The notes under the pieces: model-generated
Databases searched by the model: none
What the model saw: the letters and a program-made list of their open reading frames with translations, nothing else
Told to the model about the DNA's origin: nothing
Part shown: positions 1,094 through 48,860 of the stretch, piece by piece
How the letters are laid out: each line of letters opens with the position of its first letter
Numbering within the stretch: position 1 is the stretch's first letter
NCBI GenBank assembly: GCA_011503125.2
Contig: WWBZ02000012.1
Coordinates: 1 to 64,000, forward strand
Origin: Botryosphaeria dothidea
Taxonomy: Eukaryota > Ascomycota > Dothideomycetes > Botryosphaeriales > Botryosphaeriaceae
Length of the DNA: 64,000 bases
Reading direction: 5' to 3'
Position numbers and translations under genes: made by a program

Positions 1094-1572
1094 TGTTACG
1101 GCGTAGCCTCTATAGGTTAAGGAAGTTAGAAATTAGCCCCGCCGGAACAACAGAAGTCGGGGTTATAAAGATCCGAGGTCACGTGACCTCGCGCTCAACT
1201 AGACCCACCCGCTTAGATTGCCAAGGCTGCCTAAGCGGGCCCTATCTACTAAGCTATCCTACTTAGTTATAATAGCTCGCTTAGAAGACTACGCGCTATT
1301 AAGCGTAACCCGCCTATTAAGTATATAGATTATATAGAACTCTTCTACGTATATATAAACTATACTTCTTAGATAGCTTTAACCTTCGTAGTTAACTTTA
1401 TAATAGAATTTAGACTCTATTAGTAATACGGCCTTCGTACGTAGTACTTAGTCTCTAGTCGTCTACTCGTTTCTTACGTATCTCTTCTTATATCTACTTA
1501 AGGAAAACCCTTTAATAGGTTTCTACTCTCTTTAGTATTTAGATTCTTAGAGATAGAGGCCCGCTCGTTATA
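1094..1572 (+). repeat. LTR of chromovirus copy P, 479 bp
   Basis: It begins TGTTACGGCG and ends CTCGTTATA, the TG...CA ends of an LTR with the last CA turned to TA. It has the same length (479 bp) as the inverted LTR at 7167-7645 and matches it apart from C/T and G/A differences. The bases just after it, TTCGG, are a RIP-altered copy of CTCGG, the target site discussed under findings. Confidence 0.9.
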
Positions 1573-4500: not shown

Positions 4501-7166
4501 TACGCTATCGTAGCTAGAGTCGTATCTTAAGTCGGGGGTATCGTTTCGCTTAGTAGAGCTTATTTCTATAATAGGGTTATATTTTACCGAGGAGGCTTCG
4601 CTACTTACGTCGCAATCCTAGTACTAACTTATACTACTATCGGAGTCGCCTATATAGTTACTATATTTAGACCTTATACTAGCTACTTCCCGTATTAATA
4701 TTAATAGAAGTTTTTAAAGAATATCTAATAATCTATTCTTCTTCTATAATCCTTATTTTCGTAGAAGGTTCTCGAGCTTCTCTCGAAAGATAATAGAGTC
4801 TCCTTCTCCGAAGTCGAAGATAGGTTTCTATATTCGGATTTAGAGTATATCTAGAATAATATCGTGCCTAGAAATACGTTAGACGTCGAGGAAAATCCGT
4901 TCTTAATAGTTCCTTATCTAGAGAGTTACTTCCTCCGTTTCTATTTTTACCTAGCCTTCTTCGTAGGCTATCTAGAATCCGTCGAATCTACTAAGAAGAT
5001 ACGGTTTCTATTTCTTACGGTACGGGATATTTATCTTTTATATAAGCTCGTTATAGATAAAATTTCCGCTTAATTCTATATCGATTAGAATTCTAGTAGG
5101 TACTCCGTTAAGTATTCCCTATATCTTAAACTATTTCTATAGATTTAGTCCGGTAAGAGTTTCCGTTTTCGATATACGTAATACTATATAAAGAGACCTA
5201 GACTATAGCCCCTAGGTTAGTCCCGTTGCCGTAGGGCCGTCTAGTTTTTTAGTATAGGGTAGCCGTAGACTTCGCTATATATATAGTCTTTCTATTCGTT
5301 AACTTATAGATATACTTACTTCTAGTTAGTCTATTTATCGGCGTTCTACTTCCTTCGCTAGTAAACTTTATTCTTTCGAATCTAATATCTAAAGATTAGT
5401 TAATTAAGCTTTTTATCCGGAATCTACTAGAGTATATAATACTAGATCGTTACCGTGCCGTACTAGTAGAGAATCTATACTAGTTCCCGAAGGAAGTCGT
5501 AGTCTACTTACTCGCGCGCTAAGGTTCCTTAGTAGTAGCGTTTAACGAGTATCGTTTCTTTAGTTACCGGAAGTTCGTACTTCTTCCCGTCTTATTTAAT
5601 TCGGGTTTTCTAAAGAGTATTCTAACGCTATCTCTAAATAACCGTAAGCGCGATACTTTTCTAATAAGGAATCTAGATTATTTAGCTAAGATTACTCTAT
5701 TCGTCCCGTAGATAGTTACTAATACCGTATCTTTTAGCGAGAACTTCTAGTAAGACGAGAATATCTAGCCTATCGAATAGTATAGGTATATCGTCCGACT
5801 ATATTTTACTAGTACTCTCGTATAGTTCTCCTATTTCGCTATTAATAAGTTCGTCGTCTAGAGGGAAACTATCGATAATATCGTCGGTTTCGATAACTTC
5901 TTCGTTCCTAGTTATTATACCGAAGTTTCGAGGTTCGTAGAAGTACTATCTAGAGATATCTTTACTAGTTTAATACGTTTAACAGCCGTTATCGTAATAG
6001 GCTATTTAGTATAGCGTATTATAGTTATCTTAGCGAGATATAACCAACGCTTTACGCTAGGCGCTCGAAGTCTACTTATTATTCTTCTTACTACGAGAGT
6101 TCTACGAATACTTAGAAGAGAAGTATTTATTACTATCGTAGATAATATAGAGTCGATCCTTATAGCGCTATTTCTACTTATCCGTCTAGTTCGGATTAGA
6201 TCTCTTAGGCTTCTTATTATTATAACTATTATTACCCTTCTTAGAATTCTATCTATTAGCCGCGTCGAGGGCTATAGCGTCTCCGCCTTCGAGGATTATT
6301 CTTTCGCGGCGTAGCTTCGAGGTATTAGATTATCGAGAACCTATTTTCTATTCGTATATACGACCGTCGATCTAAGACGTAAGGTCTACTATCTTTTAAA
6401 AGGTAGGTAGATATTCGTAAGTAATTATATTCTTCTTAACTTCGTTCTTTAGGCTCTTATAAAAGAGGTCGCGGAAAGTCTCGTCTAACTATTCGAGGTA
6501 GGCTATAAGCTACTAAAACTTAGTTATATAGATAGCTATAGATTCTATCTATCTAACGGTTATAATATCGTTAGAGACTTTACGGACTTCGTCCCGATCG
6601 TTAAAAGTAGCTCTAAGGTTATCTACGAATCCCGTATAGGTATCGAAGATTTTCTTAGTCTTTACCTATCTCTTCTCGAGAGAGTATTTATTAGATAGGT
6701 AGTCGCGAAGGTATAGCTCTATCTATACCTCTGCCGTTCCTCTAAGATAGATTAATACGAAGAGTACTTCCTCGGCGTCGTTATCGAATTATACTTAGTT
6801 AAACTAGAGGTAGCGTTATATCTAGAGTAGAAAGAATTAGAGCTTCTTTCTATTCTTATTAAACTTCTCGGGTACCGCTACTTTAACCTTAGTAGCGCTT
6901 CGTTTTATCTAGTACGCTAGTAGGCGCTCGATCTAGGCTTTTTATTCCTAAATAAGTGCCTAGAGTTCTTCTCGAGTAGGCTCTATTTACTACGCGGGCG
7001 GAGTACGCCCCTAAGTATCCTTAGCGCGATCCTCTATTAGGTCGACATCTATCTAAGATCCTAGTACTATTATATACTTTCCCTAAGCTCGTTAGACGGG
7101 GTAATACTTAATCTAATAAACTCGTTTCTAAAAAGATTTCTCTCCTTATAAGGATAGTAATTAAAG
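1573..7166 (-). mobile_element. Chromovirus gag-pol body, minus strand, heavily RIP-mutated
   Basis: Read on the minus strand this is a Ty3/gypsy gag-pol: gag near 7100-5950, protease region, reverse transcriptase, RNase H and integrase down to 1573, where the integrase is cut. The RT core is clear at about 3740-3540 (GYPILFVLKK, then LRLYIDYR, then FTKLDLR) and the YLDD catalytic box is at 3396-3385, followed by ILIF. Nearly every interruption is TAA or TAG, as expected when CAA, CAG and TGG are hit by RIP. A direct duplication of about 51 bp at 4433-4506 is shared with N (42767-42840), while A has a single copy near 27666. The integrase end and chromodomain are not here but at 7646 onward in the opposite direction. 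Confidence 0.85.
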
Positions 7167-7645
7167 TATAACGAGCGGGCCTCTACCTCTAAGAATCTAA
7201 ATACTAAAGAGAGTAGAAATCTATCGAAGAGTTTTTCTTAAGTAGGTATAAGAAGAGGTACGTAAGAAACGAGTAGACGACTAGAGACTAAGTACTACGT
7301 ACGAAGGCCGTATTACTAATAGAGTCTAAATTCTATTATAAAGTTAACTACGAAGGTTAAAGCTATTTAAGAAGTATAGTTTATATATACGTAGGAGAGT
7401 TCTATATAATCTATATACTTAATAGGCGGGTTACGCTTAATAGCGCGTAGTCTTTTAAGCGAGCTATTATAACTAAGTAGAATAGCTTAGTAGATAGGGC
7501 CCGCTTAGATAGCCTTAGTAATCTAAGCGGGTAGGTCTAGTTAAGCGCGAGGTTACGTAACCTCGGATCTTTATAACCCCGACTTCTATTATTTCGGCGG
7601 AGCTAATTCCTAACTTTCTTAACCTATAGAGGCTGCGCCGTAATA
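7167..7645 (-). repeat. Inverted chromovirus LTR, 479 bp
   Basis: It runs from TATAACGAGCGG to GCCGTAATA, the reverse complement of the LTR at 1094-1572, with the same length. It is the 5' LTR of the minus-strand gag-pol body on its left. On its right it joins plus-strand integrase sequence (CTAAATAACT), so it sits at a breakpoint between opposite coding directions. Confidence 0.88.
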
Positions 7646-22844: not shown

Positions 22845-25800
22845 CTATCCCCTCTTTTAGAATCTTCGGCCCGAAGATTCTTCCGTCTTATATATATCTT
22901 CGGCGGAGTAGTATACTAGTAGGATATACTTCTACGGTAACCTAGCCTTTCTAGAGTAGTATAGGTTCTAAGTTCGAATCTTAGACCGCTTATCTACTCG
23001 TAGTATATACGTCCTACGTTAAAAGTATACGTACCCGCGTTCTTCCTAGCGGTAATAAGGGGGAAAATCTATAGATAGTTAGGGTGGGCTATAAGTAGTA
23101 TGTACGTCCTACTATAAAAGTATACGTACCCGCGTTCTCTCTAGCGGTAATAAGGGGGAGAAGAGCTAGCTAGGCGCTTCTAAAAATAAATTTTAAGAGC
23201 GCTTTACTAGCGCTTATAAATAGGTAAGCCGGAACTTCTTACGGCTTAGTCTTAAGATTTATAGTTATCTCTCTCTATAGTTTCTTCCTCTTAGCTATTC
23301 TTTCTACTTTAGATACCGCTACTAATATATAGAAAAACTATACTAAATAGAGTATCTACGGATACTACTATTATAGATAGAGAAGGTTTTTACCCGGGCT
23401 ATTCTAAGAAAGTAGCTACGGTTTCCTTTTCTATATACTCTTATAGATAGCTATAGCTATATAGACCCTTCGGGGAGCTAAATTAGCTTAAAATTAAATT
23501 TATCTATCTATCTATCTATATATATCTTCTTATAGACCTCTAGATTCTTTTCTTTATAAGTTTTTTTCGCGATAACTCTAAAGCGTGCCTATTTTAACGA
23601 CGGCGAGATCGCTTCTCGTCCTACTAAGTAGCATCGTTCTACCTTATCTCGTAAGCGGTAGCTTTAGAATATCCTTCTTAACGGTATCGAAATAATTTCT
23701 TATACTTCCTACCTAGAGTATAGGTCCGAGTATATCGCGCTTTCCGATAATCTATAAGTATACGCCGCTTATCTTAAGGCTCGTCGGAAGGAGTACGATA
23801 TTACGGAGGCTAGTAATTTAGGTCGTACGTTTCCTCCTAATCCTTTATAGCCCTTTTCTTTATTAATCCTTTCTAGTAGATAGGCTTAATCGCGAGTATA
23901 ACCGTATAGTAGCGGAAGAGAATACTACTTTAGAGAAGCTAGTTCGTCTTCGTAAATAGCGTCGTTTTCTTTACGAGCGTCGTTTTCGTATAATTCGTAA
24001 AGGTTTTAAGACGCTAGAGGAGCTTAAGAGGGCTAAGGCTTCTAGCTCGTCTAGGGGTCTTCCTAATTCTAAAAATTCTAAGGGTTCGTCCGCGTTAAAA
24101 CGGCTACGTTACGAGACGGTAGGTCCTACTACGCCGTAGGTAGCTAAGTCTACTAAGTCTACCGGCGAGCCTATAGCTAACCCGAAGTCTCCGCGTTCTT
24201 CTAACCTTATAAATTCCGCTCGTTTATCTCCCTATCTCGCGGGTTTCCCGCCGTTCTTATTCGGGGACGACCTCGTTTTCGTAGAAGGTTAGAATTTTAA
24301 CGGTAGAATTCTATAACGAGATCTAGATATATATCGTTCTTAGGTACCTATTAGTTATTCTTATTTCCGTATTCTTCCTATTTAATAAGATATTTAAGCT
24401 AATATCCGAATCTTTTATAGTCTAGGATCTTCTCGACTAGATATTCGTCTTCTTCGGTATCTAGATTTTCTAGAATTATCTCTTCTAGAGTTTCCGGGAT
24501 TATAGCGTTTTCTAGTACTAGCTCGAGTAATACTACGTAAAAGGTAGAATTTATTCGTATCGTTATTAGTAATTTAAGTCGATACGTAACGTTTCCGAGT
24601 TTTTCTAAAATTTCGAATAGACCGGTTTTCTTAAAATCTAATTTATCGCTTAGTCGCTTCGATTTAATATTTTTTATAAGGAGGTATACTTTATCCCCCC
24701 TCTTTAGATTCGGTACCGTCTAGTACTATCTATTATAGTATTTAGATATTATAATTCGTACGTACTCGAGGTCGAGACTAATAGCTTTATATAGTTCTTT
24801 TAGCTAGTCGGCTTTAAGAATACCTTACTAGGCTAATTTTTAACTTAGAATAGCTTCTCTATACGCGTCTAGTTCGAATCTATAGTTAGTAAAAAACGGG
24901 AATACGTTAGTTAACTCTTATTTAGCGCTATTATAGGCGAACTATACTATAGATAGCTATATAGTCTAATCGTTCTATAGATAGTTAACGAAATAGCGGA
25001 GATATTATTCGAGAGTCCGGTTTATCCGTTTTATCTAATCGTTCGTTTACGGGTATACGGTTATAGAGAGTTTATTTTTAGCCCTAAGTTAACGTATAAG
25101 CGTTTACTAGAATTTAGAACGTATTAGCTTATCTCTATCCGAAACTAGTTCTTTTAGTATTTCGTAATCCGCGAAGATATATTAGAGAAACGTATAAGCT
25201 AGCTATTCTATATTTAATGCCTTAAGATAGAGTAAGAAGTAAGTATACTTCGTAAGTCTATCGATAAAGACTAGAATTAAGTCGTACTTAACTTCGGTAA
25301 GCGAGTTTCTCGACTATAGTAGCTTCGTAATAAAGTCTAGCGTAACTAATTACTATAGTCGTTCTAGAACTTTTAGAAATTATAGTTATTCGTACGGAGC
25401 GTATATTATAGCTTTACTTCTAATATAAAGATTATATTACGAGACTATACGCTAGACTATCTTCCGTAATCCTAGAAAGTAGAAGTTTCGTATAATCTTT
25501 TTGGTTATTCTATCGATACTCTAATATCTATACGTAGGTACTTCGTATATATTCTTAACTAGTACTTCTCGTAGTCTTACTAGAATATAGATTAATTCTT
25601 TAAAGAGAAGCGTTTCTTCTCTATCTCGAGTAATACGCGGGTCGTTTTTAAGCGCTAAAAGTTCCTACGCGAAGAAGTCCTATACGTATACTTCTCGAAT
25701 CTTTAAATACTATAGGTTTAACTCGATACGAAGTATTAGAAAAGACGGTCTAGTAAGGGTAAGCGATCTATCGCTATCTACTACGAATACTATAAGATAC

Positions 25801-28248
25801 GGCTCGATTCGTTCTTCTATATAGTCTACCCTTCTACTAAGTACGTTAGCGGCGGCGTTATCTATATCTTTTCTATATATAATCTTAAAATCGTAGAAGG
25901 CTATTTCTTTAGACTAGCGAATCTATCGTCGGTTTAGCTTCTTAGTCGTAGTAAAGCGCGTAAGATTTTAATAATTATAATATACTACTATCTAATAGCT
26001 AGCTTCTTTAAGATAGTATCTCTATTACTTAAATACTAAGACGATAGCTAAGAGCTTCTTATTATAAGTATTATAGTTAAGCTCTACCGGTATAAACTTT
26101 CTAGAGTAAAACGCGATTAGATACTATCTGCCTTAATTATTAGGCTAGCTAAGATATACTTCGAAGGCGAATTCTAACGTATTAGTTTCTACTTCGATAG
26201 GTTTATCGGAATCGTATATCCCTAGAACTAGTACTTCGTAAAATATCCGTTTAAGCGATTCGAAGGCTTATTACTAATCGTCTTTCTATTTAAAGCTATA
26301 CTTCTTTTAGGTAAGTCGCGTTAAAGATTTCGTAATCTTTAAATAGTTCTAAATAAACTTTCGGTAGAAGTTCGCGAATCTAAAAAAGAACTAAACTTCC
26401 TTAATTATCTTAGATACTAGTTATTCTCTAATAGAATTTAGTTTCGAGTCGTCTATACTAACGTAACCTAGGGTAATAATAAAGTCTAAGAATTCTATCC
26501 TTTAAACGTACTATTCGTATTTCTTAGATACGATAGATAGATTCTTTACCTAGAGGGCTTCTAGAACCTTTCTAATATACTTCTTATAATTCTTAAGAGT
26601 TTTTAAAAAGATAAGAATATCGTCGAGGTAAGCTAAGTAGAAGATATCTAAGTATTCGCGTAGCGTATCGTTAACGAGATTTTAAAAGATTACTAGCGCG
26701 TTAGTAAGCCTAAATAGTATAACCGTATACTCGTAGAGTTCTAGCCTCGTTCTAAAGGCTATCTTCTATTCTTCTTCTTCTTTAATCCTAACTAAATAGT
26801 ATCCGTTCCGGAGGTCTAGCTTCGTAAAGTACTTTACTTTCTCTAACTTATCCTAGAGCTTATTAATACGTAGGAGCGAATAGCGGTTTTTAATCGTAAT
26901 ATTATTAAATTATCGGTAGTTAATATAGAGGCGTAGTTTACTATTCTTCTTTAGGACGAAAAGAATCGAATATCCGGCTAATAACGTTAAAGGCCGAATA
27001 TATCTACGTTCGAGGTTCTTCTTAATATATTCCCTTAAAGCCTCTATTTCCTTTACTAATAAGAAGTAGATAGGCTTATAAGCTAGCTTCGTGCCCGGCT
27101 TAAGTAGAATCTCGTAGTCCTATAGTTAATACTTTAGTAAATCTTCTTTTCCTCTTTCTTAATAAACGGCTTTTAAGTCCTAGTACTCGCTAGATACTAT
27201 TTTTATTTCCGGTATTAGAGGTTCTCCGTATAGATTATTCTATATCTCTAAACTACCGTATTATCCTCTTCTAATTCTCGCGGAATCGTCTCCTCTAATA
27301 GAAGTAGAACTATTCTTATTCTTAAGTCTTTCCCGTACGGCCTTAGCTAGTACTCTCTATTATACCGCCTATAAGAGTTTAATATATATAAGATAGACCT
27401 AGTAGCCTTAACGTCTTATACGCTTAAATACCTCTCCTAAGATTATCTAGACGTCGATTTAAGGTTCTACGGCTACTAATTACTTACGCGAAGCCTTACT
27501 CTTAGCCTTATATTCTTTCCTTATAGTTCTTCGTAATATATACTATACTTATTCGTTAGGAATACTAGACTCGGTTAGTCTTATTCCGCTTAAGGTACTA
27601 TATTTTACCGAGAAGACGGCGTCTCGTACGCTGCTATTCTAGTTCTATCTTACGCTTTCCTTAAGATTACCGTCGATACTACCGTTACTAGGTCTTACGC
27701 TATCGTTACTAGAGTCGTAGCTTAATTCGGGGGTATCGTTTCGCTTAGTAGGGCTTATTTCTATAATAGGGCTATATTTTACTAAGGAGGCTTCGCTATT
27801 TACGTCGTAGTTCTAGTACTAACTTATACTACTATCGGAGTCGCCTATATAGTTACTACGTTTAGGCCTTATACTAGTTACTTCTCGTGTTAATATCGAT
27901 AGAAGCTTTCGAAGAATATCTAATAACCTATTCTTCTTCTATAATCCTTATTTTCGTAAGAGGTTCTCGAGCTTCTCTCGAAAGATAATAGAGTCTCCTT
28001 CTCCGAAGTCGAAGATAGGTTTCTATATCCGGATCTAGAGTATACCTAGAATAATATCGTGCCTAGAAATACGTTAGACGTCGAGAGAAATCCGTTCTTA
28101 ATAGTTCCCTATCTAGAGGGTTACTTCCTCTATTTTTATCTTTACCTAGCCTTCTTCGTAGGCTGCCTAGAATCCGTCGAATCTACTAAGAAAATACGGT
28201 TTCTATTTTTTACGGTAAGGGATATCTATCTTCTATATAAGCTCGTTA
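22845..28248 (-). pseudogene. Element A pol 3' half and 3' region, RIP-saturated
   Basis: Minus strand (excluding the SINE): RT core at about 26960-26760, YLDD box 26630-26619, RNase H about 26480-25880, integrase about 25700-24800, and chromodomain about 24470-24230 (the reverse complement encodes EDEYLVEKI and the following DYKRF). The polypurine tract is the complement of CTATCCCCTCTTTT just inside the left LTR. There is a stop every few codons, all of RIP type. Confidence 0.8.
22902..23516 (+). mobile_element. tRNA-derived SINE with a LINE-like tail
   Basis: A 13-bp TSD TATATATATCTTC flanks it (22889-22901 and 23517-23529), and element N has the uninterrupted site near 38603-38645. The head (22902-22990) looks like a tRNA: a perfect 5-bp T-stem CTAAG/CTTAG around the loop TTCGAAT (22968-22984), a D-arm-like GTATA...TATAC, and GGCGG pairing with CCGCT at the ends. 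The body has two tandem copies with a 95-bp period (23000-23068 and 23095-23161). The last 75 bp (ATAGATAGC..., AGACCC, GGGAGCTA, AATTTATCTATC) match the 3' end of the LINEs at 33318-33390, including the ATCT repeat. A LINE probably mobilised it. Confidence 0.78.
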
Positions 28249-28255
28249 AAAAAAC

Positions 28256-29815
28256 ATGACCACACCAAAAAATCGACCCCAAGCTACGGCGCCGGGAGAG
28301 GGCCCTAGGGACTCTCCTAGGCTTCGCGAGTCCTAAAATAGTACTCAAGACAACTGCAGCCGCGAAGTGGTTGATGTAGAGGACACAGGAAGAGGCGAAC
28401 AGCCTCCCCCAGTGACTACCTCTACCCAGCCCCAATACACCCCCAAGAAACCGCAGAGCACCCAGTACAGCGTAGAATACGTTGAGAGAGCCTCAAAAAC
28501 AGCAGACACCCTCCTCCAAGCCCTACAAACATCCGCTAGCCTCCCTTCAGTCCTCTCCAGCCAGGTAAAAAATTTTCTCGACATTGCCAAGACAATCTTC
28601 TAGGATCATATTACTATCTACCAGGAGGCAGCCACCAAGGAGCCAGGCCTTAAGGACATCCTCAAAGAGGTCCAACAGGTCCAAAAGACAGTCAACCGTA
28701 TCCAGGCTACCTCTACACCCACACCCAACACTCGCAGCTAGGCACAAATTGCAGCCCAAGCAGCCCCGAAGCCCCCTACCCCCCCAGCCACCACTGAACT
28801 TACCCTCCACTTCCCAGAGACAGCAAATAGACAAGAAATAGCCAAGCTCTCAAATAAGGCAATTATCAGAAAGATCCAGGCAGGAAAAAGCTGGGCGTGC
28901 AAGAAAGTACTTGCTGCTAAGAAGCTCCCCAGTGGAGACGTTAAGATCTTTATACCGGATGAAGCAACCAGAACAGCCCTTCTCCAGGACCAGGAATGGA
29001 CTACAGGACTAGGAAAAGAAGTCAGGCCTAACCAGCAGCTATACTCAGTGCTAGTACACAACGTCCCTCGAGAAGGAATCGACACCACAGACCCCCAAAC
29101 CATCCAAACCATCCAGGAGCAGAACCTATCTCTACACCCAGGACTACGTATCAGCAAGCTGGCCTGGCTAAAGAGGAAGCTCCCAGAGGGGAAAACTCAC
29201 TCGGCCATCATCCTCAGCACCACAAACCCCGAAACCGCCAACCAGATCATTGATAAGGGGCTTGTTATTAACTTTGCTATCCATATAGCGCAGTACTATA
29301 ACGCAGCCTTTACAGTAACCCAGTGTTTCAAGTGCCAGGCCTACGGACATATCACCAACTATTATAAAAAGGAGGAAAAGTGCGGACAGTGCAGCAAGGC
29401 ACATAATACTAGGGACTGCCCTAAGGAAAGCATACAGTGCGCAAACTGCTCTCAAAAGCACACAGCCTGGAGCAACTCCTGCCCAGCACGCAGAGCCTGC
29501 CATGCTAAGGCCGCCCAGGCCCGCCTGGCAGCACCAGAAAGGCACCGGGAAGGACCCCTGATAACCAAAACACAGCCTCAAACTAACTGGTTGACCGTTG
29601 GACCAAGGAAGAGGATTAGGGAGGAGGAGCCGGTCAAGAGGGGACCAGGCAGGCCAAGAGACTTAAGCCGCCCCCCGCCTCCTAACCAAATGAGGTTCAC
29701 CGGACTCAACAGCTCACAACACGCCTTAGAGGAGCCCGCGGGAACTCCCTCCTCACAGCCCACACCACTAGCCCCCTCGCAGCCGGACCTAGAGATGGAA
29801 GGAAGTCAATGTTAG
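28256..29815 (+). pseudogene. LINE-1 ORF1: Gag-like protein with CCHC knuckles
   Basis: The 520-codon frame starts ATGACCACACC just inside the element and has three in-frame stops (TAA near 28335, TAG near 28602, TAG near 28738), all explained by CAA/CAG to TAA/TAG. The last third is open. It carries a knuckle CFKCQAYGHITNYY, whose last Cys position is now Tyr, then CGQCSKAHNTRDC and CANCSQKH...SC (CX2CX3-4HX4C type). The tail is basic and proline-rich, including KRGPGRPRD, an AT-hook-like string. In this family ORF1 binds the element RNA. The stop codon overlaps the start of ORF2 (ATGTTAG). Confidence 0.88.
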
Positions 29816-32800
29816 ACATAGGCTCTCTCTCTATTGTACAGTATAACGTCCATAAGAGCAAGGACAGGGTAATGCTCCCGCTCTTCAAGGAAGTGGACCC
29901 AAAGATCCACCATATCCTAGCTATCCAGGAACCTTGGAGGAACCCGAGGGTCAAGACAACAGCAAGACACCCTGCCTACCATACAGTTTTTCCCCAGGAG
30001 GGAGTGGCAAGAACCTGCTTCTTTATAAGCAAGGCCATTAGCCCCGACTCCTAGCAAGCAACAGTCCATTCACCAGATCTCATCACACTATCCCTTATTA
30101 CTAGGACACATATAATCTACATCTATAACTACTACAATTCCCCGCCAGCCTCTCATACTAGTACAGCGCTAGAAACCCTATCTCTTCTACCGGAAGTTCT
30201 TAGAAAACCAGGGGAGCACATTCTCCTAGGGGACTTTAACCTCCACCATCCTATCTGGGGAGGTATAACCTCCCTAATATACCACACCCTAGCGGATAAC
30301 CTAATTGAGATAGCTACCGCAGCTAATCTTAACCTAGCCCTTCTAAGGGGCACTATTACTAGACGAGATAGTAGCAGCGAGAGTACTCTAGACCTTGTCT
30401 TTATATTACGGTGGCTAGAGAAGAGAATCCTTAGCTATAGAGTTAGCCAGGAGCTCGAATCATCCTCTAACCACCTACCTATCCTTACTACACTTGATTT
30501 TTCTCCTACCCCCGCAGAACTACGCCCCCTAAGGCCCTAGTGGAAGAAAGCAGACTAGAAGAGAACTAATAATATGCTCCAATTAAAGCTCGAACACCTT
30601 AAAGCAACCCCTCTTAACACTAAAGCAGACCTAGATCACTTTACTACACTACTCTAGGAGGCCATCCAAAGGACAATCTAGGAGACTATCCTAGTAGCGA
30701 GACCCTCGCCCTGGGCCTCTATACAATGGACAAAGGAGTATTCGGACCTAGTGCACCAGGCTAGAGCAGCTAGAAGGAAGTGGACGGCCACAGGGAGGGA
30801 GGAGGACTAGGTAGTATACTAAACTATTGCTAATAGCAAGAAGAGGCAGATCAGAAGAGATAGAACAAAAGCATGGCGCAGAACAGTAGCTGAGATTACT
30901 TCGGACCCATCTACACTCTAGAAGCTCTCAAAGTGGGCAAGAACAAGGGCACTAGAACCTCCAGCCCCACCTCAGTTCCCACCCCTCCAGGGAGCAGATG
31001 AATAACTACATTACGATAACCAGTCCAAGGCAGAAATCCTTACCAACCAGTTCTTCCCACCTCCCAGGGCCACCGACCTCTCAGATCTAGATGGGTGTAT
31101 ATACCCAGTGCCAGTAGAGATTCCCCAAGACCTTACTAAAGAGCAGGTCCTCTACACCATCAAGAAGCTTCCCCCAGACAAGGCACTAGGCCCAGACAAG
31201 ATCACCAACAGGTTCCTAAAGCAATGCGCTGAGACACTAAGGGGACCCCTCACCAGGCTCTTCCAGGGATGCCTCGCACTTGGATACCACCCTAGGCAGT
31301 TCAAAAGCTCTATTACCGTAGTCCTCAGGAAACCACAGAGGGACGACTATACCAAAGCCAAGTCATTTAGGCCGATTGCTTTACTTAATACGCTAGGGAA
31401 GCTACTTGAGAGGATTATAGCAGATAGAATCTCCCAGGCTACTAAAGCATACGGCCTGCTCCCTAATACATAGATGGGAGCTAGGAGAAACAGATCCGCA
31501 GTAGCAGCTCTTGACCTGCTCACAGAACAGATCCATACTATCTAGGCACAAGACCCAGGGCTAGTGGCTTCAGTCCTTAGCCTAGATATCTCGGGAGCAT
31601 ATGACCACGTATCTCATAGAAGGCTTCTCTACAATATAAGGATGGCAAAACTCCCAGAATGGGTAGAAAGATTCACCCGATCCTTTCTACAGGACCGTAC
31701 CACTCAGCTATCCTTCGGAGACTTTACCAGTCCACTAATCCAGACCTCAACCGGGATTCCCCAGGGATCCTCACTATCGCCGATACTCTACCTATTCTTT
31801 ACATCTAACCTACTTACACAGCTACGCAGGGGCAATACCTTCCCCCTTAGATTCGTCGATAATACTAATATTCTAACCTTTAGTAGATCCATAGAATAGA
31901 ACTATAGGATACTAGAGGGAGCATATTAAATTTACGAGCACTGGGCAGCTACCTACGGGTCAGCTTTCTCGCCCGACAAGTATCACCTTATTTATTTTAC
32001 AAGGAAACTAAGGAGATTCAATATGGCAGCAGGGATCCGTATCCCTGGATTTGCTGGATGCCCAGAGCCTACAATTAAGATTCTAGGAGTCCACGTAGAT
32101 AACAAGCTCAGATGGGGACCCTATATTAGGGAAACAGGAGCTAAGGCAATTAAACAGTACACATCTCTCTCTAGACTCGCGGCGTCTACCTAGGGAGCCT
32201 CATTTACTAAAGCCCGTTATATCTATGCGGCCGTGGTAAGGCTAGTCCTCACCTACGGCTGTAGGGTATAGCATACCCCAGAGGGAATCCCAGGGTGGAG
32301 AAAAACAACCATCCAGCCACTAAAGAAGATCCAAAACCAGTGCCTACGCACCATCTCAGGGGCGTATAAGTCAACTAGCATACAAACCTTGGAGTATAAG
32401 ATAGGGATTCCCCCACTCTCACTACACCTGGACGAACTAGCACTGGCCCAGGCTATTAGAGCTAGGGATGGCCTAGTCGCGACAGTAGTAGAGGAAACTT
32501 GCCAGAGTATTAAATAGATAGCTCGGGCTACTCTAAGTACTAGAGGCGCCACTAGCCCTGCCAGAAGAACCCTGCTTAGAAAAAAGGCAAACTCACTTCT
32601 CAACTACTGCCCCTCTACCTACTAGAGTCTCCCGGAGCGAACGAAGCTACGCATAGCATATAGGAATAAGTGGAAGGAGAGATGGACAAAGTCTACTAGC
32701 CAGGGAAGACAAGACAAGCTAGTAGCCCAAAGCACATAGTGGAACCCAAAAATCAGACAAATCCACAGCGAACTATCCAAGCCACAGAGCACACTCGCCA

Positions 32801-33165
32801 CCCTACTACGTACAGAGCATATTGGACTAGAGGACTTCCTCTCAAGGCGCAAGGTGCCAGGGTACCCTAGTCCTGCCTGTCTATGCGGCTGGCATAGACA
32901 AACCCCAAAGCATATCCTCCTCTTCTACCCCCACTTCTAATAGGGCAGGGCACAGATGCTCCAAAGGGCAGGGACCACGGACTACTACTCCCTCCTCTCA
33001 ACAAAGAAGGGGATCAAAGCAGCAATAGACTGGTTCTTACGCCTAGGGCTGCTCAAGCAATTCAGCCTAGCAAGGGAACTAATATAGGAAGATAACCAGG
33101 AAGAGGAACTAGGAGGACAACCAGGACAACCAGGACCACTAGGACCCGGACAACTACGAGGATAA
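29809..33165 (+). pseudogene. LINE-1 ORF2: endonuclease and reverse transcriptase, broken
   Basis: One frame runs from ATG 29809 to about 33165 (around 1,118 codons). It begins with an AP-endonuclease-like domain (SIVQYNVHKSK, ILAIQEPW, LLGDFNLHHP near 30230). The RT lies at about 31100-31900: PVEIPQDLTKEQVLYTIKKL, LNTLGKLLERIIADRI, SLDISGAYDHVSHRRLL, GIPQGSSLSPILYLFF and FVDNTNI at the active site, where the second Asp is Asn. A CxCX8HX4C zinc finger lies near 32880 with its last Cys now Tyr (CLCGWHRQTPKHILLFY). A Gly/Pro/Gln-rich tail follows. Many in-frame TAG/TAA codons inactivate it. Confidence 0.88.
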
Positions 33166-33406
33166 GGACTAAAGAGATAGGTCTAGTAGGTGAATGTAGG
33201 GCTGCCATAGCAGCCGCTACTAGTAAGAAGGAAAAACAAGAACTAGTATAGGATAGCATGCCCAGAGAGAGAGGAGGGGTTTTTGCCAGGCGAAAAGGTT
33301 TTCCCCCTCGTATAAAATAACTATAGATAGCCAGCCCCGCATGGACCCGTAAGGGAACTATATCGGGAAGAAATGAATTTATCTATCTATCTATATAAGC
33401 TCGTTA

Positions 33407-34235
33407 TAGATAAAGTTTCCGCTCGATTCTATATCGATTAGGATTCTAGTAGGTACTCCGTTAAGTATTCTCTATATTTTAAACTATTTCTATAGATTTA
33501 GTCCGGTAAGAGTTTCCGTTTTCGATATACGTAATACTATATAAAGGGATCTAGACTATAGCCTCTAGGTTAGTCCCGTTACCGTAGGGCCGTCTAGTTT
33601 TTTAGTATAGGGTAGCCGTAGACTTCGCTATATATATAGTCTTTCTATTCGTTAACTTAGAGGTATACTTACTTCTAGTTAGTCTATTTATCGGCGTTCT
33701 ACTTCCTTCGCTAATAGACTTTATCCTTTCGAACCTAATATCTAAAGGTTAGTCGATTAAGCTTCTTATCCGGAATCTACTAGAGTATACGATACTAGAT
33801 CGTTACCGTGCCGTACTAGTAGAGAATTCGTACTAGCTCCCGGAGGGAGTCGTAGTCTACTTACTCGCGTACTAAGGTTCCTTAGTAGTACTATTCGACG
33901 AGTATCGTTTCTTTAGTTACCAGAAGTTCGTACTTCTTTCTATCTTATTCGATTCGAGTTTCCTAAAGAGTATTTTAACGCTATTCCTAAATAACCGTAA
34001 GCGCGATACTTTTCTAATACGGAATCTAGATTATTTAGCTAAGATTACTCTATTCGTCCCGGAGGTAGTTACTAATACCGTATCTTTTAGCGAGAACTTC
34101 TAACGAGATAAAGATATCTAGCTTATCTAATAGTATAGGTATATTATCTAACTACGTTCTACTAGTACTCTCGTATAGTTCTTCTATTTTACTATTAATA
34201 AGTTCGTCGTCTAGAGGAAAACTATCGATAATATC
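33407..34235 (-). pseudogene. Element A internal piece between the two LINEs
   Basis: RIP-saturated gag-pol junction sequence on the minus strand. It continues the Q sequence seen at 5055-5880 (same order, for example TAGATAAAGTTTCCGCT after the LINE-1 TSD). It contains no separate gene. Confidence 0.8.
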
Positions 34236-37200
34236 TCAAGGACAGGGTAATGCTCCCGCTCTTCAAGGAAGTGGACCCAAAGATCCACTATATCCTAGCT
34301 ATCCAGGAACCTTGGAGGAACCCGAGGGTCAAGACAACAGCAAGACACCCTGCCTACCATACAGTTTTTCCCTAGGAGGGAGTGGCAAGAACCTGCTTCT
34401 TTATAAGCAAGGCTATTGGCCCCGACTCCTGGTAAGCAACAGTCCATTCACCAGATCTCATTACACTATCCCTCATTACTAGGACACATACAATCTACAT
34501 CTATAACTACTACAATCCCCCGCCAGCCTCTTATACTAGTATAGCGCTAGAAACCCTATCTCTTCTACCGGAAGTTCTTAGAAAACCAGGGGAGCATATT
34601 CTCCTAGGGGACTTTAACCTCTACTATCCTATCTGGGGAGGTATAACCTCTCTAATATACTACACCCTAGCGGATAACCTAATTAAGATAGCTACCGTAG
34701 CTAATCTTAACCTAGCCCTTCTAAGGGGCACTATTACTAGACGAGATAGTAGCAGCGAGAGTACTCTAGACCTTGTCTTTATATTACGGTGGCTAGAGGA
34801 GAGAATCCTTAGCTATAGAGTTAGCCAGGAGCTCGAATCATCCTCTAACCACCTACCTATCCTTACTATACTTAATTTTTCTCCTACCCCCGCAGAACTA
34901 CGCCCCCTAAGGCCCTAGTAGAAGAAAGCAGACTAGAAGAGAACTAATAATATGCTCTAATTAAAGCTCGAACACCTTAAAGCAACCCCTCTTAATACTA
35001 AAGCAGACCTAGATCACTTTACTACACTACTCTAGGAGGCCATCCAAAGGATAATCTAGGAGACCATCCTAGTAGCGAGACCCTCGCCCTAGGCCTCTAT
35101 ACAATGGACAAAGGAGTATTCGGACCTAGTATACTAGGCTAGAGCAGCTAGAAGGAAGTGGACGGCCACAGGGAGGGAGGAGGACTAGGTAGTATACTAA
35201 ACTATTGCTAATAGCAAGAAGAGGCAGATCAGAAGAGATAGAACAAAAGTATGGCGTAGAATAGTAGCTGAGATTACTTCGGACCCATCTATACTCTAGA
35301 AGCTCTCAAAGTGGGCAAGAACAAGGGCACTGGAACCTCCAGCCCCACCTTAGTTCCCACCCCTCCAGGGAGCAGATGAACAACTATATTACGATAACCA
35401 GTCCAAGGCAGAAATCCTTACCAACCAGTTCTTCCCACCTCCCAGGGCCACCGACCTCTTAGATCTGGATGGGTGTATATACCCAGTGCCAGTAGAGATT
35501 CCCCAAGACCTTACTGAAGAGCAGGTCCTCCACACCATCAAGAAGCTTCCCCCAGACAAGGCACCAGGCCCAGACAAGATCACCAACAGGTTCCTAAAGC
35601 AATGCGCTGAGACACTAAGGGGACCCCTCACCAGGCTCTTCCAGGGATGCCTCGCACTTGGATACTACCCTAGGCAGTTCAAAAGCTCTATTACCGTAGT
35701 CCTCAGGAAACCACAGAGGGACGACTATACCAAAGCCAAGTTATTTAGGCCGATTGCTTTACTTAATACGCTAGGGAAGCTACTTAAGAGGATTATAGCA
35801 GATAGAATCTCCTAGGCTACTAAAGCATACGGCCTACTCCCTAATATATAGATAGGAGCTAGGAGAAACAGATCCGCAGTAGTAGCTCTTAACCTACTTA
35901 TAGAACAGATCCATACTATCTGGGCACAAGACCCAGGGCTAGTGGCTTTAGTCCTTAGCCTAGATATCTCGGGAGCATATAACCACGTATCTCATAGAAG
36001 GCTTCTCTATAATATAAGGATGGCAAAACTCCTAGAATAGGTAGAAAGATTCACCCGATCCTTTCTATAGGACCGTACCACTTAGCTATCCTTCGGAGAC
36101 TTTACTAGTCCACCAATCTAGACCTCAACCGGGATTCCCTAGGGATCCTCACTATCGCCGATACTCTACCTATTCTTTACATCTAACCTACTTACACAGC
36201 TACGCAGGGGCAATACCTTCCCCCTTAGATTCGTCGATAATACTAATATTCTAACCTTTAGTAGATCTATAGAATAGAACTATAGGACACTAGAGGGAGC
36301 ACATCAAATTTACGAGCACTGGGCAGCTACCTACGGGTTAGCTTTCTCGCCCGACAAGTATCACCTTATTTATTTTACAAGGAAACTAAGGAGATTCAAT
36401 ATGGTAGCAGGGATCCGTATCCCTGGATTTGCTGGATGCCTAGAGCCTATAATTAAGATTCTAGGAGTCCACGTAGATAATAAGCTCAGATAGGGACCTT
36501 ATATTAGGGAAACAGGAGCTAAGGCAATTAAACAGTACACATCTCTCTCTAGACTCGCGGCGTCTACCTGGGGAGCCTTATTTACTAAAGCCCGTTATAT
36601 CTATGCGGCCGTGGTAAGGCCAGTCCTCACCTACGGCTATGGGGTATGGTATACCCCAGAGGGAATCCCAGGGTGGAGAAAAACAACCATCCAGCCACTA
36701 AAGAAGATCCAAAACCAGTGCCTACGCACTATCTCAGGGGCGTATAAGTTAACTAGCATACAAACCTTGGAGCATAAGACAGGGATTCCCCTACTCTCAC
36801 TATACCTGGACGAACTAGCACTAGCCTAGGCTATTAGAGCTAGGGATGGCCCAGTCGCGACAGTAGTAGAGGAAACTTGCCAGAGTATTAAACAGATAGC
36901 TCGGGCTACTCTAAGTACTAGAGGCGCTACTAGCCCTGCTAGAAGAACCCTGCTTAGAAAAAAGGCAAACTTACTTCTTAACTACTGCCCCTCTACCTAC
37001 TAGAGTCTCCCGGAGCGAACGAAGCTACGTATAGTATATAGGAATAAGTAGAAGGAGAGATGGATAAAGTCTACTAGCTAGGGAAGATAAGATAAGCTAG
37101 TAGCCCAAAGCATATAGTGGAACCCAAAAATCAGACAAATCCACAGCGAACTATTCAAGCCACAGAGCACACTCGCCACCCTACTACGTACAGAGCATAT

Positions 37201-37770
37201 TAGACTAGAGGACTTCCTCTCAAGGCGCAAGGTGCCAGGGCACCCTAGTCCTGCCTATCCATGCGGCTGGCATAGACAAACCCCAAAGCATATCCTCCTC
37301 TTCTGCCCCCACTTCCAATAGGGCAGGGCATAGATGCTCTAAAGGGCAGGGACCACGGACTACTACTCCCTCCTCTTAATAAAGAAGGGGATCAAAGTAG
37401 TAACAGACTAGTTCTTACGCCTAGGGCTGCTCAAGCAATTTAGCCTGGCAAGGGAACTAATATAGGAAGATAACTAGGAAGAGGAACTAGGAGGACAACT
37501 AGGACCACTAGGACCACTAGGACCCGGACAACTACGAGGATAAGGACTAAAGAGATAGGTCTAGCAGGTGAATGTAGGGCTGCTATAGCAGCCGCTACTG
37601 GTAAGAAGGAAAAATAAGAACTAGTATAGGATAGCATGCCCAGAGAGAGAGGAGGGGTTTTTACCAGGCGAAAAGGTTTTCCCCCTCGTGTAAAATAACT
37701 ATAGATAGCTAGCCCCGCATAGACCCGTAAGGGAACTATATCGGGAAGAAATGAATTTATCTATCTATCT
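34236..37770 (+). mobile_element. LINE-2: 5'-truncated copy of LINE-1, 3.5 kb
   Basis: It starts in the middle of the endonuclease domain (AAGGACAGGGTAATGCTCCC matches LINE-1 near 29860) and runs to the same ATCT tail. 5' truncation is typical of target-primed reverse transcription. The flanks ATCGATAATATC (34224-34235) and ATTAATAATATC (37771-37782) are a 12-bp TSD with two RIP-type changes. It differs from LINE-1 by many C/T and G/A changes in both directions plus small indels (for example near 37495). Confidence 0.9.
34237..37542 (+). pseudogene. LINE-2 ORF2 remnant
   Basis: The same domains as LINE-1 ORF2 from mid-endonuclease on. Open blocks include 35486-35815 (RT start, TEEQVLHTIKKLPPDKAPGP) and 36611-36829 (VRPVLTYGYGVWY). 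The RT box again reads FVDN. The zinc finger near 37260 is better kept here: CGWHRQTPKHILLFCPHF. It shares several stop codons with LINE-1, for example in the CCCTAG and GACTAGAAG contexts near 34917 and 34934, and has private ones as well. Confidence 0.85.
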
Positions 37771-37782
37771 ATTAATAATATC

Positions 37783-38099
37783 GTCGGTCTTAATAACTTC
37801 TTCGTTTCTAGTTATTATACCGAAGTTTCGAGGTTCGTAGGGGTACTATCTAGAGATATCTTTGCTAGTTTAATACGTCTAATAGCCGTTATTATAATAG
37901 GCTATTTAGTATAGCGTATCGTAGTTATCTTAGTAAGATATAACCGACGCTTTACGCTAAGCGCTCGAAGTCTACTTATTATTCTTCTTACTACGAGGGT
38001 TCTACGAATACTTAGAAGAGAAGTATTTATTACTATCGTAGATAATATAGAGTCGATCCTTATAGCGCTATTTTTGCTTATCCGTCTAGTTTAGGTTAG
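37783..38099 (-). pseudogene. Element A gag piece between LINE-2 and N
   Basis: RIP-saturated gag sequence matching 5880-6190 of Q and 44216-44530 of N. It ends at GTTAG, the site where N inserted, and continues at 45975. Confidence 0.78.
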
Positions 38100-38574: not shown

Positions 38575-41500
38575 CTATTCCCCCCTTTAAGAATCTTCGG
38601 CCCGGAGATTCTTCCGTTTCTCTAGTATATCTTCCTATAGGTTATTAGCTTATTTCTTCCTCGTAAGTTTCCGCGATACCTTCGAAAAAGCGTGTTGCTA
38701 AAGATTCCGCTATTAACCTTCGTTCTCGTAAGATAAATAGGGTTATTCTTCGTCGCTAGGAGCTACTAGACGAGATTTTCTTTCGGGGTATCGAGATAAT
38801 TTCTTGTGCGAATTATCTAGAGTACGAATCGGAGTGCGTAGCGTTATAAGAGAACCTATCTATTTATACTACCTATTTAGGAGCTCGTCGGATAGAATAT
38901 AATATCGTAGTTCGGGGTGTTTCGCGTTATAAGTTCTTTCTCTTTCTTCTTATATTTATACCTAACCGGCCCTAGTAGATTCTCTAGAGCGGGAATAGGC
39001 TCGTCTTACCGCGGAGGAGGACGTAACGTTAGAGAAGCTTCTTCGCCTACGTAAGTAGCAGCGTTTCCTTTAGTCGCGTCGTTCCCGTATAATTCGCGAA
39101 GATTTCGAGTCGCTAGAGGAGCTTAAGAGGGCTAAGGCTTCCGGGTTACCTAGGGGTCCTTCTAACCCTAAGACCTCTAAGGGTCCGTTCTTATTAGAGC
39201 GGCCACGTTACGAGTTAGTAGGTCCTACTATACCGTAGTCGGCTAAGTCTACCGCGTCTACCGGCGAACCTATAGCTAATACGAAGTCTCCGCGTTCTTC
39301 TAAGCTTATAAATTCTACTCGTTTATCTTCCTTCTTTAAGGGTTTCCCGTCGTTCTCGTTTAGGGACGACCTCGTTTCCGTAGGAGGTTAGGATTTTAAC
39401 GGTAGAATTCTATAACGAGATCTAGATATATATCGTCCTTAGGTATCTATTAGTTGTTCTTATTTCCGTATCCTTCCTATTTAATAAGATATTTAAGCTA
39501 ATATCCGAATCTTTTATAGTCTAAGATCTTCTTAACTAGATATTCGTCTTCTTTAGTATCTAGGTTTTCTAGAATTATTTCTTCTAGAGTTTCTAGAATT
39601 ATAGCGTTTTCTAGTACTAGTTTAAGTAATACTACGTAAAAGGTAGAATTTATTCGTATCGTTACTAGCAATTTAAGTCGATACGTAACGTTTCCGAGTT
39701 TTTCTAAAATTTCGAATAGACCGGTTTTCTTAAAATCTAATTTATCGCTTAGTCGCTTCGATTTAATATTTTTTATAAGGAGGTATACTTTATCCCCCCT
39801 CTTTAGGTTCGGTGCCGTCTAGTACCGTCTATTATAGTACTTAGATATTATAATTCGTACGTACTCGAGGTCGAGACTAATAGCTTTATATAGTTCTTTT
39901 AGCTACTCGGCTTTAAGAATACCTTACTAGGCTAATTTTCGACTTAGGATAGCTTCTCTATACGTATCTAATTCGAATCTATAGTTAGTAAAGAACGGGG
40001 ATACGTTAGTTAACTCTTATTTAGCGCTATTATAGGCGAACTATACTATAGGTAGCTATATAGTCTAATCGTCCTATAGGTAGTTAACGAAATAGCGGAG
40101 GTACTATTCGAGAGTCCGGTTTATCCGTTCTATCTAACCGTTCGTTTATAGGTGTACGGTTATAGAGAGTTTATTCTTAGCTCTAAGTTAACGCATAAGC
40201 GTTTACTAGAATTTAGAACGTATTAGCTTATTTCTATCCGAAACTAGTTCTTCCGGCATTTCGTAATCCGCGAAGATATATCGGAGAAACGTATAGGCTA
40301 ACTATTCTATATTCGATATCTCGAGATAGGGTAAGAAGTAAGCGTACTTTGTAAGTCTATCGATAAAGACTAGGATCGAGTCGTACTTAACTCCGGTAAG
40401 CGAATCTTTAGACTATAGTAACTTCGTAATAAAGTCTAGCGTAACTAATTACTATAGTCGTTCTAGAACTTCTAGAGGTTATAGTTATCCGTATAAAGCG
40501 TGTATCGTAGCTTTACTTCTAATATAAAGGTTATATTACGAGACTATACGCTAGACTATCTTCCGTAATCCTAGAAAGTAGAAGTTTTATATAATTCTTT
40601 TAGTTGTTCTATCGATACTCTAATATCTATACGCGGGTGCTTCGTATATATTCTTAACTAGTACTTCTCGTAGTCTTACCGGAATATAGATTAATCCTTT
40701 AAAGAGAAGCGTTCCTTCTCTATCTCGAGCGATACGCGGGTCGTCCTTAAGCGCTAAAAGTTCCTACGCGAAGAAGTCCTATACGTATACTTCTTAAATC
40801 GTCTAATACTATAGGTTTAACTTAATGCGAAGTATTAGGAAAGACGGTCTAGTAAGGGTAAGCGATCTATCGCTATCTACTACGAACACTATAGGGTACG
40901 GCTCGATTCGTTCTTCTATATAGTCTATCCTTCTACTAAGCGCGTTAGCGGCGGCGTTATCTATATCTTTTCTATATATAATCTTAAAATCGTAGAAGGC
41001 TATTTCTTTAGACTAGCGAACCTATCGTCGGTTTAGCTCCTTAGTCGTAGTAAAGCGCGTAAGGTTTTAATAATTATAATATACTACTATCTAATAGCTG
41101 GCTCCTTTAAGATAGTATCTCTATTACTTAAATACTAAGACGATAGCTAAGAGCTTCTTATTATAAGTATTATAGTTAAGCTCTACCGGTATAAACTTTC
41201 TAGAGTAAAACGCGATTAGGTACTATCTACCTTAATCGTTAGGCTAGCTAAGATATACTCTAAGGGCGAATTCTAACGTATTAGTTTCTACTTCGATAGG
41301 TTTATCGGGGTCGTATATCCCTAGAACCGGTGCTTCGTAAAATATCCGTTTAAGCGATTCGAAGGCTTACTACTAATCGTCTCTCTATTTAAAGCTATAC
41401 TCCTTTCGAGTAAGTCGCGTTAAAGATTCCGTAACCTTTAAGTAGTTCTAAATAAACTTTCGATAGAAGTTCGCGAATCTAAGAAAAGACTAAACTTCCT

Positions 41501-44500: not shown

Positions 44501-45499
44501 CTATTTCTACTTATCCGTCTAGTTCAGGTTAGATCCTTTAGGCTTCTTATTATTATAACCCTTATTACTCTTCTTAGAATTCTATCTATTAGCCGCGTCG
44601 AGAGCTATAGCGTCTCCGCCTTCGAGGGTTATTCTTTTACGGCGTAGCTTCGAGGTATTAAATTATCGAGAACCTATCTTCTATTCGTATATACGACCGT
44701 CGATCTAAGACGTAAGGTCTACTATCTTCTAAAAGGTAGGTAGGTATTTATAAGTAATTATATTCTTCTTAACTTCGTTCTTTAGACTCTTATAGAAGAG
44801 GTCGCGGAAAGTCTCGTCTAACTATTCGAGGTAGGCTATAAGCTACTAAAACTTAGTTATATAGATAGCTATAGATCCTATCTATCTAACGGTTATAATA
44901 TCGTTAGAGGCTTTACGGACTTCGTCCCGATCGTTAAAAGTAGCCCTAAGGTTATCTGCGAATCCCGTATAGATATCGAAGATTTTCTTAGTCTTTGCCC
45001 GTCTCTTCTCGAGAGAGTATTCGTTAGCTAAGTAGTCGCGAAGGTATAGTTTTATCTATACCTCTGCCGTTCCTCTAAAGTAGATTAATATAAAGAGTAC
45101 TTCCTCGGCGTCGTTATTAAATTATACTTAGTTAAACTAGAGGTAGCGTTATATCTAGAGTAGAAAGAATTAGAGCTTCTTCCTATTTCTATCGAACTTC
45201 TCGGGTGCCGTTACTTTAACCTTAGTAGCGCTCCGTTTTATCTAGTACGCTAGTAGGCGCTCGATCTAGGCTTTTTATTCCTAAATAAGTGCCTAGAGTT
45301 CTTCTCGAGTAGGCTCTATTTACTACGCGGGCGGAGCACGCCCCTAAGTACTCTTAGCGCGACCCTCTATTAGGTCGACATCTATCTAAGATCCCGATAC
45401 TATCGTATACTTTCCCTAAACGCGTTAGGCGGGGTAATACTTAACCTAATAAACTCGTTTCTAAAAAGATCCCTCTCCTTATAAGAATAGTAGTTAAAG

Positions 45500-45974
45500 T
45501 ATAACGAGCGGGCCTCTACCTCTAAGAATCTAAATACTAAAGAGAATAGAAACCTATTAAAGAGTTTTCCTTAAGTAGGTATAAGAAGAGGTACGTAAGG
45601 AACGAGTAGACGACTAAAGACTAAGTACTATATACGAAGGCCTTATTACTAATAGAGTCTAAATTCTATTATAAAGTTCTATTATTAAAGTTAACTACGG
45701 AGGGTTAAATACTAGCTAGAGAGTAAAGCTATATATACTATAGAGAGTATATATAATCTAGTAGTACCGTCTTTTAAGAGCATCGCTAAGCGTGCCGTTT
45801 CTTAAGGGCATACGTTAGTATACCGTTTATTAAGGGCATAGGTAGGTCGTACGTAATAACTTACGTGGTAGAGTCCGTAATCTCGTAACCTCGGTTCTAT
45901 AAGACTTCCGACTTCTCGCTATTTCGTCGGAGTTAATCCGTAATTCTCTAACCTAAGAAGGCTATACCGTAATA
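45500..45974 (-). repeat. Element N right LTR (5' in coding sense), 475 bp
   Basis: Same length and sequence as 38100-38574 apart from RIP-type differences. It ends GTAATA followed by the TSD GTTAG. Confidence 0.9.
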
Positions 45975-48657: not shown

Positions 48658-48860
48658 TTACCCCCCTCTCGGCTTTGAAGGTAGGTCTCTAGGGCTTAAG
48701 TATCTTCTAAAGCACTCGCTAGTTCCCAAGTTGGCCGCGCGTATCCTCTCTACTTAACTTGATAGAGCTTTCTGTAGTCCCTCCCCCGGCAAAAAATTGG
48801 CCACTTTTTTGAGCATTCTCGTACGTTGCTCGATCCTTATCTGTTACCAATGCTCTTGCC

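Follow-up and report, generated by a model that had tools for sequence, protein, structure and literature searches.

A probable tRNA-derived SINE family in Botryosphaeria dothidea with a 3′ end resembling that of a resident LINE

In Aspergillus fumigatus, the element AfuSINE2-1a is described as combining a tRNA-related head with a 3′ end that resembles those of the Tad1-group LINEs I-4_AO and I-1_AF, and the AfuSINE2 group as carrying short TSDs of 4–14 bp (PMC5063351). Because this is a published fungal SINE whose tail is LINE-like, the kind of element that we report here is already known. According to the same account, MgSINE of Magnaporthe and Foxy of Fusarium oxysporum are tRNA-derived SINEs with about 100 and 160 copies, respectively, and Foxy is active (PMC5063351). 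For vertebrate LINE/SINE pairs of the stringent type, recognition of the 3′ tail or of a stem-loop by the LINE protein is described on the basis of assays (PMC4176376, PMC5135761).

We analysed a SINE copy in a 64,000-nucleotide stretch of Botryosphaeria dothidea DNA (hereafter the window; positions 1 to 64,000 of contig WWBZ02000012.1) together with its relatives in the same genome. Our main reading, to which we assign a probability of roughly 0.9, is that a tRNA-derived SINE would have been transcribed by RNA polymerase III and mobilised recently via a resident LINE encoding an endonuclease and a reverse transcriptase, and that most of the copies examined were subsequently mutated by RIP or a similar process.

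The window copy, its family and its head

Telomere-like AACCCT, repeated 20 times at the contig start (1–121), suggests that the window comes from the tip of a chromosome arm. A repeat element about 6 kb long, itself mutated, occurs in several copies (1571–7413, 24805–38099 and 39904–45760), and tandem arrays at 48853–49106 (27-bp unit, 9.5 copies) and 49339–49517 (12-bp unit, 14.9 copies) lie near the edge between repeats and genes. In a database comparison of the window's FAD-oxidoreductase gene, the nearest entries were 97–100% identical, followed by one from Auriculariales and by several genera of Botryosphaeriales type, among them Diplodia and Lasiodiplodia. An earlier note on this DNA had described an insertion with a duplication at its ends, a tandem body and an empty site in a related element. 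The insertion and both duplications were recovered (Table 1), and the two body segments at element 99–166 and 194–261 are 91% identical in the window copy (element positions count from the first base of the insertion). The empty site exists, since the flanks, once joined, can be aligned across the insertion point with two places in the window, 1116–783 (reverse, 73%) and 9126–9011 (80%), in alignments that involve just about 80 bp of the left flank. No ORF of at least 120 aa was found in the window copy, and no ATG-started ORF of at least 40 aa in a young locus (L083).

Table 1. Positions of the SINE copy, its parts and the two LINE copies in the window
Feature	Position	Strand	Remarks
SINE copy, whole insertion	22902–23516	+	615 bp
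Left TSD	22889–22901	+	TATATATATCTTC, 13 bp
Right TSD	23517–23529	+	same 13 bp as left
tRNA-like head	22902–22994	+	element 1–93; RIP-like mutations in window copy
A-box-like stretch	22909–22919	+	element 8–18; TGGTGTACTGG in young copies, TAGTATACTAG in window copy; read from sequence
B-box-like stretch	22972–22980	+	element 71–79; GTTCGAATC; inside the perfect T-arm
Tandem body unit 1	23000–23067	+	element 99–166; period 95
Tandem body unit 2	23095–23162	+	element 194–261
LINE-matching SINE tail	23442–23515	+	element 541–614, about 74 bp
Tail region foldable like LINE 3′ RNA in young copies	23456–23487	+	predicted fold; outer stem element 555–558/583–586, CCC/GGG hairpin 565–567/572–574
(TATC)4 microsatellite tail	23501–23516	+	read from sequence
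Likely partner LINE, copy 1	28248–33394	+	ORF1, ORF2 (EN, RT); frames broken by stops
LINE 3′ end, copy 1	33322–33394	+	72% to window SINE tail, 78% to young SINE
Likely partner LINE, copy 2	about 34235–37784	+	5′-truncated; frames broken
LINE 3′ end, copy 2	37700–37772	+	74% to window SINE tail

Searching the genome to which the window belongs (51.7 Mb in 78 contigs) with the SINE returned 46 matches, 40 of which are scored full-length copies, a lower bound in view of 275 candidates; the 39 besides the window copy are 95–96% identical to it. With at most three mismatches, a 34-base pattern from the tail was found at 84 places and a 31-base pattern from the head at 173 (100 of the 173 listed), and the reversed control of each at none. 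The copies occur in two length forms, one of 615 bp, in which the 95-bp body unit is present twice, and one of about 520 bp, in which it is present once. In 28 of 30 copies, a direct repeat that is exact over at least 11 bp covers both junctions; the exceptions are L005 (6 bp) and L016 (8 bp). Among 12 young copies, by which we mean un-mutated or lightly mutated ones, the TSD measures 14 bp in 11 and 13 bp in one.

The search for further copies with variable TSDs that the earlier note had proposed thus found many, namely 60 distinct sites in 66 rows, some copies sharing a site. L021 and L022 may be one duplicated insertion. The duplications of L022 (C29:1862861), L021 (C29:1877192), L004 (C4:1006584) and L095 (C1:407833) are identical and their flanks similar; these four copies apparently occupy one site of another repeat, at which either a TATA site was reused or the locus was later duplicated. 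The SINE forms a multi-copy family of short elements without a protein-coding frame and with variable TSDs at independent sites.

Full-length copies begin exactly at the 5′ end of the tRNA-like head. The A-box-like stretch differs at one position from the A-box motif TRGYNNARNNG, and the B-box-like stretch lies in the T-arm. The perfect T-arm noted earlier is present (CTAAG-TTCGAAT-CTTAG). At its default threshold, ARAGORN called none of eight young heads a tRNA, and at 90% (-ps90) it returned a cloverleaf for all eight and for 0 of 500 shuffles; because these heads are near-identical, this result counts as about one observation. At lower thresholds, shuffles passed as well (48 of 500 at 80% and 149 of 500 at 70%). 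Rfam reported no tRNA, whether in 10 mutated copies (E-values up to 5) or in six young loci (up to 10). We also built a covariance model from 13 mature tRNAs of the same genome, leaving out Trp. This model, whose E-values are rough, matched the heads of the seven young loci searched with 18.4 bits (E = 6 × 10−4) and, run without filters on one young locus, gave 20.7 bits for the head and 4.8 bits for the next best place. As controls, the Trp gene scored 52.5 bits and three LINE-end loci gave nothing. The tRNA origin proposed in the earlier note is supported by these 18.4–20.7 bits on young heads, and the covariance fold that it had suggested as a check stands with the own-genome model on these young heads and falls with Rfam for mutated and young copies alike.

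The earlier idea of a tRNA of about 89 nt with a long variable arm does not hold. Both ARAGORN and the covariance model put the extra bases, some 13–20, in the anticodon arm, where the ARAGORN cloverleaf of the young heads has a 13-base insert; in these models, the extra bases are better explained as an intron-like insert in the anticodon arm of a normal cloverleaf. The genome yielded 61 tRNA matches, of which 20 were fetched and 19 used for a comparison with the head. On contig C14, which is probably the mitochondrial genome, many tRNA matches of standard size were found. The nearest candidate parent among the 19 genes aligned was Trp(CCA), with z 4.7–5.5, and Gly and Ser were close; Trp(CCA), Gly and Ser(AGA) each scored above all 1000 shuffles in global alignment with the head. 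Because all three score close to one another, we name no single parent tRNA. Young copies further carry a run of four T at element 290 and of five T at element 486, either of which could stop Pol III inside the SINE.

The 3′ tail, the LINE and the insertion signature

Partner SINEs of stringent-type LINEs copy the tail that is recognised. In the family described here, a young SINE tail and the LINE 3′ end share 43 ungapped aligned bases outside the microsatellite with a score of 41, which none of 2000 shuffles reached in any of eight tests (null maxima 23–36). The majority tail of the mutated copies, under standard scoring and outside the microsatellite, was not above chance (190 and 163 of 1000 shuffles scored as high); when transitions were tolerated, 0–1 of 1000 shuffles did so. 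The LINE-like tail claimed earlier, and the alignment suggested to examine it, is accordingly borne out by the young copy, and the mutated copies fail under standard scoring. In a comparison of a young SINE with LINE copy 1 of the window, the tail match alone was convincing, next to two short matches with E = 0.66.

We fetched 20 divergent LINE copies whose endonuclease regions are 77–86% identical to that of the window copy. Seventeen have a readable tail, which is the same tail with the same AATTTATC end, and three are without a recognisable tail in the stretch. In all 13 LINE copies compared, conservation is higher over the last 80 bp (94–99% identity) than over the preceding 220 bp (84–94%), although these copies are not independent, six having nearly the same values and probably representing one lineage. 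The 84 tail matches comprise 54 inside full-length SINE matches and 30 elsewhere. Because the 29 of these 30 that were fetched all match the SINE over at least 400 bp, none of them is a LINE end; the remaining match, C12:294 at a contig end, is outside that count. Neither the genome-wide tail pattern nor the 20 divergent LINE copies revealed a LINE with a closer tail. Taken together, the alignments indicate that the SINE 3′ end is homologous to that of a LINE of the same genome.

The same outer stem and the same CCC/GGG hairpin are possible in both tails, the stem pairing CCCG with CGGG in the LINE and GCTG with CAGC in the SINE. For the SINE tail, the outer stem is predicted at a probability near 0.5, and an alternative fold competes with it. 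Two double changes, in two lineages, are found in the 4-bp stem, and 38 of 500 shuffles were as good; a common 3′ RNA fold is suggestive only.

LINE copy 1 contains AP-endonuclease and reverse-transcriptase domains (Pfam) and, as judged by eye, CCHC-like knuckles in ORF1, and copy 2 matches it at 96% identity over 3.5 kb. The two LINE insertions split the middle copy of the 6-kb repeat element at different points. In L141, a related copy, ORF1 is 537 aa long and ORF2, with 1,144 codons, is split by one stop; a Pfam search of L141 gave no match to RNase H. The best 120 relatives are 44–63% identical, and the few that come with an organism name are from ascomycetes. The LINE is multi-copy, with at least 40 3′ ends at 96–100% identity, and these ends look young (one transversion in 29 copies of 378 bp). 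A stop-free ORF2 with all 1,144 codons was found neither among 150 scored of 399 candidates, the longest frame being 701 codons, nor in a second search among 48 scored of 842 candidates, which contained two stop-free matches of 961 codons that are closed by a stop upstream. Since ORF2 was intact in none of the LINE copies scored, the analysis revealed no working helper; such a helper may lie outside the scored set or outside this assembly, or it may be gone.

The two elements also resemble each other at their insertion sites. TATA directly follows the last TATC in 61 of 66 SINE rows (28/30, 19/20 and 14/16, with 4 of 20 in the third set left out for want of a recognised tail) and in 32 of 47 LINE rows (23/30 and 9/17, with 3 of 20 in the second set left out likewise), and the mean at control offsets is 0.8–3.4%. 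Counted by distinct site, the numbers are 56 of 60 for the SINE and 27 of 42 for the LINE. Among 30 LINE copies, six (L034, L035, L039, L042, L057 and L060) are 5′-truncated and have a 14–15-bp TSD starting with TATA. The 11-bp repeats of L051 and L058 start with CTTC and CTAC, respectively, so TATA is not absolute. The SINE and the LINE have a common signature, consisting of a TATA junction at most sites and TSDs of 13–15 bp. The elements are also found nested, with one SINE inside a LINE tail (L026), one between two pieces of another SINE (L018) and one interrupted by LINE-tail-like sequence (L101).

Mutation and truncation of the copies

The window copy is saturated with RIP-like mutations: it contains two CpA/TpG dinucleotides in 615 bp, and the 30 copies nearest to it, itself included, contain 0–8 each. 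When 30 mutated copies were compared with L081, which we assumed to represent the parent state, 1968 of 1973 changes were C>T or G>A. By dinucleotide, CpA was changed at 1481 of 1560 positions (95%), CpC at 393 of 2879 (14%), CpG at 55 of 1620 (3%) and CpT at 39 of 2757 (1%). From this signature, we infer that the mutated copies, including the window copy, were altered by RIP or a RIP-like process.

Twenty loci were hand-picked from the 84 tail matches, mostly for un-mutated letters, and eight of these, L081 included, lie within 0–2 bases of L081. Five copies (L081, L082, L085, L087 and L089) are identical over 597 bp and occupy five sites with five different duplications, which indicates that the family has been active very recently. 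Across 69 aligned copies, CpA conversion ranges from 0 to 100%. The 51 copies with at least 560 aligned bases hold 110 differences that are not of the RIP type, 103 of them in seven copies (L090, L091, L093, L094, L095, L101 and L118) that are truncated or interrupted, so that foreign sequence was forced into the alignment; the other 44 have seven such differences altogether. Less-aligned, interrupted copies with many non-RIP differences include L108, L114 and L117. Because the differences are almost all of the RIP type, the fetched full-length copies resemble products of RIP acting on a single sequence, of which un-mutated versions are still present.

A length of 520–615 bp would be sufficient for RIP to reach these copies. 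With conversion of CpA spanning 0–100% and almost no other change, the family would serve as a natural readout of RIP, in which dinucleotide preference and order in time could be read against one extant parent-like sequence.

Six copies with clean 5′ truncations, each with its own, different TSD, start at element 53 (L090), 54 (L094), 53 (L095), 54–56 (L118), 72 (L145) and about 203 (L144). This is a small and non-random sample, which omits L091, L093 and L149, in which no duplication is readable, as well as a few partial matches such as C58:3799209, which starts at element 23. Four of the six truncations map to the anticodon loop or to the 3′ strand of its stem (CCAC 31–34 / GTGG 55–58). LINE truncations with duplications are scattered over 479–1631 bp from the tail. 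One tentative idea, which we hold to be rather improbable, is that the SINE RNA folds as an intron-bearing pre-tRNA and is cut in the anticodon arm, with the tRNA splicing endonuclease or a nuclease acting on anticodon loops as candidate enzymes, and that the 3′ fragment with the LINE tail is then retrotransposed. Such a cut would explain why four of six truncations lie at element 53–56, beside the stem strand at 55–58. A duller alternative, which would also explain the truncations, is that the reverse transcriptase simply stops when it meets the folded head. A literature search returned no paper on a cut of SINE RNA in the anticodon arm, as judged by titles and the first part of abstracts.

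Alternative readings and known systems

The SINE might owe its mobility to a different, unsampled LINE with a closer tail, of which the window LINE would be a cousin. The two tails are just 78% alike, no intact copy of the window LINE was found among the scored candidates, and the LINE candidates examined were the best-scoring ones, all of them related to the window LINE. However, the tail and its AATTTATC end recur in 17 of 20 divergent LINE copies, and no LINE end was seen among 83 of the 84 SINE-tail matches (54 in full-length SINEs, and 29 of the 30 others SINE); we judge this account unlikely. We give still less weight to the view that the family is a short non-autonomous LINE derivative, transcribed by RNA polymerase II, with a non-tRNA head and a cloverleaf that arose by chance. 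Such a derivative would fit an element that is long (615 or about 520 bp), that has internal T-runs and whose tRNA escapes Rfam and the default setting of ARAGORN, a program that shuffles also pass at 80% (48/500) and 70% (149/500). It would not account for the covariance score of the head (18.4–20.7 bits against 4.8 for the next place, with nothing in LINE ends), the result at 90% (8/8 heads, about one observation, against 0/500 shuffles) or the coincidence of the tRNA-like 5′ end with the exact start of full-length copies, and we regard it as very improbable.

A MITE-like remnant of a DNA transposon or a simple dispersed satellite would likewise be multi-copy and, as seen in a young copy, without an ATG-started frame of at least 40 aa, but it is contradicted by the one-ended truncations and the tail: the 3′ microsatellite is asymmetric and variable in length, the TSDs differ in sequence, the 5′ truncations have TSDs and the 3′ end is LINE-like. 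We consider such an origin scarcely credible.

In the reading that we favour, an ordinary two-part, tRNA-derived SINE mobilised recently by the resident LINE, RNA polymerase III presumably transcribes the element from the A and B boxes of the head. The 3′ tail of the SINE RNA would mimic the 3′ end of the resident LINE and the ORF2 protein of the LINE would pick up the RNA, as suggested by the shared sequence, the possible shared fold and the shared insertion signature. The endonuclease would nick at TATA, where the (UAUC)n end would be reverse-transcribed by target-primed reverse transcription; while the signature itself is observed, this mechanism is our proposal for how the 14-bp duplications arise. 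Some copies, the window copy among them, would then have been mutated by RIP or a RIP-like process. Because the stretch common to both elements is the better conserved portion of the LINE 3′ end as well, this clean fungal SINE/LINE pair would make partner choice testable.

By description rather than by sequence, the present SINE is like AfuSINE2-1a in having a tRNA-related head and a LINE-like 3′ end. It differs in its pattern matches, which number well over 100, its identical young copies and the insertion signature that it has in common with the LINE, and also in its RIP-like images, as the main text of the AfuSINE2-1a paper does not contain the word RIP (PMC5063351). Compared, again by their published descriptions, with MgSINE and Foxy, the present SINE is set apart by the 95-bp tandem body and the LINE-type (TATC)n tail. 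In the vertebrate pairs, recognition of the tail was assayed, whereas in the present pair we infer it from conservation and a possible common fold.
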